Source of the DNA: a virus
Strand: one strand, 5' to 3'
Length of the DNA stretch: 64,000 nt
IMG/VR virus record: IMGVR_UViG_3300042261_001312
Coordinates: 1-64,000 of that record
Shown here piece after piece: positions 5,289 to 37,861 of this stretch (positions are counted from its first letter, which is position 1; the number at the start of each line of letters is the position of its first letter). Under the pieces are notes generated by a model. That model saw only the letters and a program-made list of their open reading frames with translations, did no database searches and had not been told where the DNA came from. Position numbers and translations under genes: made by a program.

Positions 5289-5359
5289 AGTCGGAGCAGG
5301 ACTCGAACCTGCATACATAGCCACGTTCGCCATGCGCTAACCAATTACTATATCCGACT
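5289..5359 (-). tRNA. tRNA-like, anticodon loop atypical
   Basis: Perfect acceptor AGTCGGA/TCCGACT and T-arm GCAGG-TTCGAGT-CCTGC, anticodon stem ATGGC/GCTAT. The loop is GAACGTG with A instead of U at position 33 (formal anticodon ACG) and the D-stem pairs poorly. Possibly degenerate. Confidence 0.5.
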
Positions 5360-5429
5360 AAGAGTCCGTGCTTTCCGAACTGTCAAATGCTTCATAACAC
5401 TTAGGCATTTTAGCATTAACTAACCACGT

Positions 5430-33066: not shown

Positions 33067-33396
33067 TTACTGATTAAGTGCTAAATCTAATTTTTTTGTA
33101 AATTTTCTTGTCTCAGGAGTACCGTAATAACAAAGACTTGTCATCTGGTTATCAATGTCTGGTTCAGTAAATGCCACAACATTAACACCATAATACTTTA
33201 ATTCTTCGTAAAGGTCTTTGAGTTTGTTTTCATCGTCAACTGACAATGCTACGAGATATTTGGATTCTCGCATCCAATCTTGGAAATGATTGGGAAATTC
33301 TTGTGCAAATTCTGCCAGTGAGTGGGCAGATTGAACTAATTGATATCCTGCACTGATATCTTTTCTTGTTACAGTAACTAATTTAACCTACGTCAT
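33067..33396 (-). CDS. PTH2-family protein with in-frame amber codon at position 3
   Basis: Frame from ATG 33396 reads M-T-TAG-VKLVTVTRKDISAGYQLVQS-AHSLAEF, then YLVALSV, FTEPDIDNQMTSLCY and TRKFTKKLDLALNQ: a full peptidyl-tRNA hydrolase 2-type domain (K..TRKD...GYQ.VQSAH; EPD..Q.T). The TAG is at 33388-33390. No other ATG precedes Met at 33273, which would delete the N-terminal third including the QSAH motif. A CTA-anticodon tRNA lies 580 nt away. So readthrough by that tRNA, a non-standard start, or a sequence error are the options. PTH2 enzymes free tRNA from peptidyl-tRNA; some phage relatives have unknown targets. Confidence 0.7.
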
Positions 33397-33414
33397 AACT
33401 TTTAATTTTTAATT

Positions 33415-33422
33415 ATAAATAC
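33415..33422 (-). promoter_or_regulatory. late-type motif GTATTTAT
   Basis: 18 nt before the ATG at 33396, the usual spacing, which supports 33396 as the intended start of the PTH2-like gene. Confidence 0.55.
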
Positions 33423-33433
33423 TAAGTGAATGC

Positions 33434-33467
33434 AAACTTGCATAATATATTTCAATTATGCAAGTTT
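33434..33467. terminator. 13-bp hairpin
   Basis: AAACTTGCATAAT/ATTATGCAAGTTT perfect stem overlapping the end of the gene at 33456; T-run follows only on the plus strand. Confidence 0.5.
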
Positions 33468-33956
33468 TTTTTGAATTTCTTTTATTTTTGCAATTAAATC
33501 ACAAAACTCTGTAAAGGATTTTGCTTTAACATATCCATTTGGATATGCGATTTTATATTCTTCGACGGCTGCATCACCATGTTTTGCCCTTACCTTTTCA
33601 GTAACGTCTTCCATCCATGTAAGATCGTATTGTCTTCTTTTAATGCTGGCAAATGGATGCACTGTAACTGCAATATCACCAACTTTCGCCCAAGCATTGT
33701 TATTGGTGGCATATCCTTTTGTCTTTCCAACAGTCCAACCCATTTCAGTAAATTTTGCAATTTCATTGGCAGAGAATTCGTCTTTTTCATTAAACAAATA
33801 TCCGTCAACAACACCGTCAATTGTTCCTGAATAATAGTTTTTAATAAGGTTTTCATCATCAGTATCAATTACTTGAAGATGACCATATTTGTCGGTATGT
33901 ACTTCAATTACATGCCTTAAAAACAATTTTAATTCTTCTCTTAAATTACAATCCAT
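33456..33956 (-). CDS. hypothetical protein (166 aa)
   Basis: Not recognised. Mixed alpha/beta: GTIDGVVDGYLFNEKDEFSA, GWTVGKTKGYATNNNAWAKV, then basic C-terminal helices. Follows the suppressor tRNA in transcription order and precedes the PTH2-like gene. Confidence 0.6.
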   Translation of the reverse strand: MDCNLREELKLFLRHVIEVHTDKYGHLQVIDTDDENLIKNYYSGTIDGVVDGYLFNEKDEFSANEIAKFTEMGWTVGKTKGYATNNNAWAKVGDIAVTVHPFASIKRRQYDLTWMEDVTEKVRAKHGDAAVEEYKIAYPNGYVKAKSFTEFCDLIAKIKEIQKKLA

Positions 33957-33976
33957 GATTTATAAATTTTTATTTG

Positions 33977-34047
33977 TGATTCTTGAGGGGGTCGAACCCT
34001 CGAATGCTGTTTTAGAGACAGGTGTTTTACCACTAAACTAAAGAACC
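33977..34047 (-). tRNA. suppressor tRNA with CTA anticodon (reads UAG)
   Basis: Acceptor GGTTCTT/AAGAATC, D GTTT/AAAC, anticodon arm CCTGT-CTCTAAA-ACAGC (position 27-43 mismatched), T-arm GAGGG-TTCGACC-CCCTC. Loop has U33, A37 and anticodon CTA. One base away from the CTCTGAA loop of tRNA-Gln(CTG) at 62986. Confidence 0.8.
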
Positions 34048-37789: not shown

Positions 37790-37861
37790 GGTCTCGTATT
37801 GGAGTCGAACCAATGTCTCCCTGCTTGTCGCAAGGCACACTATCCTCTATGCTAACGAAAT
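37790..37861 (-). tRNA. tRNA-like, loop CGACAAG (formal ACA)
   Basis: All arms form (D GCAT/GTGT, anticodon stem CCTTG/CAGGG, T-arm ATTGG/CCAAT, acceptor with a mismatch at the end) but position 33 is G. Anticodon assignment doubtful. Confidence 0.5.

Follow-up and report, generated by a model that had tools for sequence, protein, structure and literature searches.

We describe a phage gene of the peptidyl-tRNA hydrolase 2 (PTH2) fold that carries an in-frame TAG as its third codon. Its translation appears to be gated by programmed readthrough of this codon by the phage's own suppressor tRNA, a reading to which we assign a probability of about 0.88. The comparison of sequences on which it is based revealed a conserved stop, a cognate tRNA, joint switching of the two, a permissive 3' context and specificity for a single gene. 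It is also quite probable that many large-phage lineages share a natural module in which a suppressor tRNA has PTH2 as a dedicated, possibly sole, nonsense-gated target, the codon and the anticodon switch together among the three stops, and the inserted amino acid is irrelevant. The initial annotation of this DNA had proposed that a nearby amber suppressor decodes UAG in the PTH2 gene while UAG terminates others, and the conserved TAG and the matched switches support that proposal. What it did not see is the apparent conservation of the gate, which is shared by many phage lineages.

The PTH2 gene and its in-frame TAG

The window, the whole 64,000-nucleotide stretch of DNA that was analysed, is part of an IMG/VR virus record of 327,676 bp in total. 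The PTH2-like gene is located on the minus strand between nucleotides 33,067 and 33,396 and codes for 109 amino acids when UAG is read. Its ATG start codon (33394-33396, minus strand) is followed by ACG as codon 2 (33391-33393, minus strand) and by the in-frame TAG as codon 3 (33388-33390, minus strand), which is conserved in homologues. The next base is a G, the sequence continues with GTT AAA TTA GTT (VKLV), and the frame is open as far as 33067; both the coordinates and the open frame bear out the initial description of a frame that opens with ATG ACG TAG. The product matches the Pfam PTH2 family (PF01981) with 26.4 bits, above the curated cut-off of 23, and 13 of 16 members match this family.

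A position-weight model of start contexts trained on 305 ORFs of the window phage placed the ATG at 33394-33396 in the 95th percentile among the phage's own starts and in the 99.8th among all ATGs. The sole later in-frame ATG (33273, Met42) has a context in the 0.7th percentile. The promoter-like motif AGTATTTA is found at 33416-33423 (minus strand), 20-27 nt 5' of the PTH2 ATG, and recurs 5' of other genes; of the 305 upstream regions of the phage, 50 contain GTATTT and 41 contain AGTATT. The interval between the PTH2 gene and the tRNA described below includes a 166-amino acid ORF (33456-33956, minus strand) without a Pfam match, which the proposed model does not need.

The AlphaFold model of the protein, generated with a 50-sequence alignment, has a pLDDT of 95.5 and a pTM of 0.89. 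The best Foldseek match of this model was the Pth2 structure 2zv3 (E = 5.5e-8), and 3erj, 1wn2, 1q7s and 1xty were also matched. Strand 1 consists of residues 5-11, immediately after the codon-3 TAG. A protein begun at Met42 would lack strand 1 and helix 1, and with them the invariant residues Q22 and H25, so the frame cannot yield PTH2 from an ATG start unless the TAG is passed. Residues Q22, H25, E78-P79-D80 and T86 are invariant in the phage PTH2 family. The lysine of the GKGKxxxQ motif plays a catalytic role in cellular Pth2 proteins, and its position is occupied in the phage family by Y or another residue (PGYQxVQ). Since this lysine is not kept, hydrolase activity is not assured, and the fold makes peptidyl-tRNA hydrolase activity of the phage proteins likely rather than certain.

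Conservation of the TAG among homologues

The TAG and an upstream in-frame ATG were present in all six closest relatives of the window gene, which are found on viral contigs and show 44-72% identity. Homologues with an ATG directly before VKLV would have spoken against the initial proposal; TAG was kept instead in these six and in about a hundred more genes. The arrangement start codon, short leader, TAG, PTH2 domain was found in 103 of 149 distinct PTH2 genes, with no ATG between the TAG and the domain. The leader mostly consists of 0-3 codons between start and TAG (an ATG-to-TAG distance of mostly 1-4 codons). As the same TAG recurs in every close relative, the TAG in the window is, by this comparison, no sequencing error. 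A lone premature stop in one gene usually indicates decay or error, but its recurrence in about a hundred diverged homologues with intact domains already refutes a pseudogene, an assembly error or chance, and we regard these explanations as having a negligible probability.

Among annotated phages the gate is present in mycobacteriophages of the Grungle and ScoobyDoobyDoo groups, Tenacibaculum phage pT24, Cronobacter phage GAP32, Pectobacterium phage CBB, Serratia phage BF, Xanthomonas phage XbC2, Acinetobacter phage ME3 and Salmonella phage Arash, and it is also found in uncultured huge phages. In XacN1 and RAS14 PTH2 forms the C-terminal portion of a larger fusion protein, and ATG AAA TAG opens the fusion. 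The TAG is located in the middle of the PTH2 domain in three genes. A genome scan with the PTH2 profile, for which sub-alignments of the PTH2 alignment were used, gave one match on a Bacillota MAG contig that likewise has the TAG and a CTA tRNA. Among the genes of the mycobacteriophage clade the codon right after the TAG is GTG or ATG, with a Shine-Dalgarno (SD) spacing that suits it, so that this clade may have escaped the gate or lost its dependence on it.

Several irregular loci were observed. In L062, L125, L143 and L208, and possibly L049, a duplicated PTH2 5' end (ATG...TAG...KLxVxTRxDL..) has become joined to an ORF that resembles an endonuclease and in L062 and L125 includes an HNH-like motif. 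These fusion ORFs are found about 0.75-0.98 kb upstream of an intact gated PTH2 gene, and the arrangement in the first four loci looks as if a homing endonuclease had inserted into the 5' region of PTH2. In the GenBank entries MF403008 (198552-198884) and PV764938 (176653-176985) PTH2 begins at an internal codon because of an in-frame TGA or TAG, and its 5' end is lost. In Salmonella phage Arash (L257) the gene is annotated as a 3' fragment and the tRNA at 5301-5375 of this locus as Phe; ARAGORN reads a CTA anticodon in the latter.

The CUA tRNA of the window

Upstream of the PTH2 gene, on the same strand and 580 nt from its ATG, is a tRNA with a CUA anticodon, i.e., an amber suppressor (33976-34047, minus strand). 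A structurally good tRNA with this anticodon had been noticed at first sight, and this impression held: the gene was called by ARAGORN, scored 64.0 bits with the Rfam tRNA model, and its acceptor, anticodon and T stems form. ARAGORN labels it tRNA-Pyl from the anticodon alone. No match to PylS (TIGR02367) was found in the genome of the window phage (G000), and a pyrrolysine system was rejected for lack of this partner of the CUA tRNA. A phage-encoded release factor 1 was also looked for, without a match. With regard to the parentage of the suppressor, no other tRNA in the window is close to it. ARAGORN identified 33 tRNAs within the window in all; one of them, a tRNA-Cys with an ACA anticodon (37790-37861, minus strand), falls below the Rfam tRNA threshold.

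With G1 paired to C72 and an anticodon stem like that of an elongator, the tRNA is not an initiator. This bears on the idea that UAG is itself the start codon, decoded by a CUA-anticodon initiator tRNA; in its favour, strand 1 of the fold comes right after the TAG in most homologues. Nearly all homologues, however, have an in-frame ATG or GTG a few codons upstream, the TAG can be in the middle of a gene, and the context of the ATG is strong. With the upstream ATG, the elongator-like tRNA and the mid-gene TAGs all against it, an amber initiator codon was rejected as very improbable.

Linkage of the cognate tRNA and joint switching

A CTA tRNA was found in the searched stretch, mostly ±5 kb, of 86 of the 103 TAG-gated genes, and a TTA tRNA in none of the 103. 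Every one of the 124 CTA tRNAs counted shares its strand with PTH2. Among 123 clusters below 80% identity the association between TAG and CTA was 76/15 versus 9/23 (Fisher P = 2e-8, uncorrected for phylogeny); a tree-based sign test had only three supported independent pairs, too few for significance. In the searched stretch, mostly ±5 kb, no CTA tRNA was found at 17 gated loci. When whole records were searched for these and similar loci, several proved to carry one elsewhere, some short contigs excepted; XacN1, the L054 genome, RAS14 and LR756511 have a CTA tRNA elsewhere in the genome. Conversely, no in-frame TAG was detected in the PTH2 gene of eight loci that have a CTA tRNA. Unusual tRNA-like genes whose anticodon loop includes CTA were observed in LR745206 (L231, 1462-1541), LR756502 (L263, 280-339) and LR756504 (L264, 246-321), the last of which has an eight-base anticodon loop. 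One of the three is tRNA-Sec-like and one is matched solely by the tmRNA model.

Two PTH2 genes, L193 and L196, are gated by TAA. They have TTA tRNAs 121 and 885 nt upstream, respectively, and no CTA tRNA. L196 is nested in the clade of the window gene, all other members of which are TAG/CTA (SH-aLRT 84). In Agrobacterium phage Atu_ph07 the sequence ATG ATT GGC GAA CAC TTT TGA precedes PTH2 and a UCA tRNA is located at 430,713; UCA is the sole suppressor tRNA listed in the description of this phage (PMC6102473). The PTH2 of Sinorhizobium phage Phosso, which came from the search of annotated phages, is 72% identical to its Atu_ph07 orthologue, opens with ATG AAA TAT TAG and has a CTA tRNA 4.4 kb upstream. 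Scans of viral contigs for sequences closer to the TAA- and TGA-gated genes returned only the same contigs. As far as these sequences tell, the codon has changed along with the anticodon between sister genes, and each of the three stops is represented. Matched switches of this kind (TAG/CUA, TAA/UUA, TGA/UCA) are what decoding by a cognate suppressor predicts. The bodies of the CTA tRNAs are very diverse between phages, so selection appears to act on decoding itself rather than on one particular amino acid.

The ATG-stop gate was absent from the PTH2 genes of RaK2, Hallingskeid, Vibrio phage F86, PX29, Aeromonas phage 65 and Mx1, and no CTA tRNA was found in the same six genomes by a non-exhaustive pattern search and ARAGORN. 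Klebsiella phage RaK2 (L033) has TAG GTA AAC AAT ATG upstream of PTH2, with the TAG present and a new ATG after it, which is possibly an escaped gate. In the Lak phages Lak-B7 (L029) and Lak-A1 (L261) PTH2 has a clean ATG start, and a tRNA with a TTA anticodon is located some 0.6-0.7 kb upstream of the gene; in Lak-B7 the clean ATG is preceded by ATG AAT ATC TAA, perhaps a remnant ochre gate. The PTH2 frame of Myxococcus phage Mx1 (L260) is without a start codon, and in the frame from which a +1 shift would lead into PTH2 an ATG precedes a TGA by six codons, a possible frameshift gate of the RF2 type. Such a frameshift was rejected for the window gene, where the upstream ATG and PTH2 share one frame.

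The short leader could instead be a minigene or uORF attenuator of the lambda bar type, in which ATG-X-TAG sheds short peptidyl-tRNAs and senses hydrolase activity, while PTH2 itself would arise through reinitiation or from a non-AUG codon behind the UAG. The leader has the size of a minigene, with 0-3 codons after the ATG, and the GTG or ATG directly after the TAG in the mycobacteriophage clade would suit this arrangement. Short ORFs are known to cause peptidyl-tRNA drop-off that is resolved by Pth (review PMC8012679). The drop-off products of the lambda bar minigenes are Pth substrates. Yet such an attenuator predicts neither a nearby cognate suppressor tRNA nor the joint switching of codon and anticodon, nor does it fit the three genes with a TAG in mid-domain or the location of SD-like motifs, seen before the upstream ATG in 30 genes versus the post-TAG codon in 2. 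The likeness of the leader to lambda bar may matter, but by this analogy the matched anticodons could not be explained, and we consider the attenuator improbable.

Use of TAG in the rest of the genome

The initial annotation had regarded TAG as still being a stop elsewhere in this phage, and indeed 16 of its 306 ORFs of at least 100 amino acids end in TAG. A scan of the whole genome of the window phage for in-frame TAG found no start-proximal TAG with a coding-like frame behind it other than that at 33388, and reading TAG as sense adds almost no coding density. Across the other loci TAG is the end of 144 of 1,396 ORFs, i.e., an ordinary stop in most of them, and Lak alone is clearly code 15. 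When further gated families were sought around the tRNAs, candidates other than PTH2 were at background (20 TAG, 17 TAA, 11 TGA), and PTH2 is the only gene family with the putative gate found in the loci examined. Code-15 phages typically have CTA tRNAs (PMC11210395) and the Lak phages of our set use this code, which would make PTH2 one among many genes with an in-frame TAG in a genome with whole-genome amber reassignment. For the window phage this was rejected, and has a very small probability, since many genes with an in-frame TAG were not found and TAG is in use as a stop.

Proposed mechanism

The preferred reading remains readthrough by the phage suppressor. Initiation is, on the sequence evidence, at the upstream ATG; SD-like motifs were found before this codon in 30 of the 103 gated genes, compared with 2 before the post-TAG codon. 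A purine after a stop codon favours suppression over termination. At +4, directly behind the gate TAG, 102 of the 103 genes have A or G and none has T, which is the commonest base after TAG genome-wide in the phage. Among representatives the 3' context is TAG-[AG]-T-n-n-A, with a purine at +4 in 81/82, T at +5 in 67/82 and A at +8 in 67/82, and may be a cis readthrough signal.

In three respects the model goes beyond the comparison and is inferred, namely that UAG is read through in vivo, which residue is incorporated there and what the gate is for. The ribosome would initiate at the ATG and then encounter UAG at codon 3. When the phage CUA tRNA is absent, release factor 1 would terminate translation after two residues and no PTH2 would be made, because a product of the next in-frame ATG would lack strand 1 and helix 1. 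Once the suppressor tRNA has been transcribed, matured and charged, UAG would be decoded and full-length PTH2 produced, and the dose of PTH2 would track suppressor activity in the manner of an AND gate or a coherent feed-forward loop.

Normal stops are also read through when suppressor tRNAs are present, which generates non-stop ribosomes that rescue systems have to handle, according to a study cited in a review (Ueda 2002, cited in PMC8012679). The purpose that we prefer is that PTH2, made in proportion to suppression, would clear peptidyl-tRNAs from ribosomes overrunning UAG stops; a hydrolase scaled to suppression would thus serve as an automatic antidote. Alternatively, the gate could be a delay timer, as the tRNA would have to accumulate first, or could provide feedback, should PTH2 act on the suppressor tRNA.

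Relation to known systems and significance

The closest designs differ in instructive ways. In the leak dampener, a synthetic suppressor-tRNA feed-forward loop (PMC7969014), a gene with a nonsense codon is likewise expressed solely with a co-regulated suppressor tRNA; that circuit is amber, and an opal version works too (PMC7969014). It is engineered, whereas the phage gate is natural, start-proximal, restricted to one gene family and found in many lineages with all three stops. Autoregulation of RF2 (prfB, PMC12421855) is similar in that an early stop in the gene of a translation factor ties its synthesis to decoding at that stop, but it operates by a programmed frameshift at a premature stop that is not TAG, while the phage gate would use one frame and a stop read by a phage tRNA. 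Phages with code 15 or 4 also decode a stop with their own CUA or UCA suppressor tRNAs (PMC11210395, PMC9523058), but the recoded stop is in many genes, whereas the PTH2 gate concerns one gene and the codon is still a stop elsewhere.

The tRNAs involved are the same as the orphan suppressor tRNAs of the jumbo phages XacN1 (PMC5852040), RsoM2USA (PMC8504454) and Atu_ph07 (PMC6102473). The authors of the XacN1 study reported two CUA tRNAs, the targets of which were not identifiable (PMC5852040); both XacN1 and Atu_ph07 were in the set examined, and a gated PTH2 was found in each. The presence of PTH2 throughout jumbo phages has been noted before, together with a proposed role in the rescue of cleaved peptidyl-tRNAs, in a paper that makes no mention of in-frame stops or of a linkage to suppressors (PMC7824862). 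No prior report of the PTH2 gate was found in open-licence PMC papers, a search that left bioRxiv and most subscription journals outside.

The gate offers an explanation for PTH2 being often missed or truncated in GenBank, as in Atu_ph07, Phosso, Serratia phage BF and Salmonella phage Arash. Suppressor tRNAs are common in large phages, and have had no known target where the genome is not recoded, as its authors state explicitly for XacN1 (PMC5852040); the gate would give the orphan suppressor tRNAs of XacN1 and other jumbo phages a target. It would be a natural counterpart to a synthetic-biology circuit, with a stop codon as the lock on a tRNA-recycling enzyme and a phage tRNA as the key, and with it the coupling of translational rescue to nonsense suppression in phages becomes testable.
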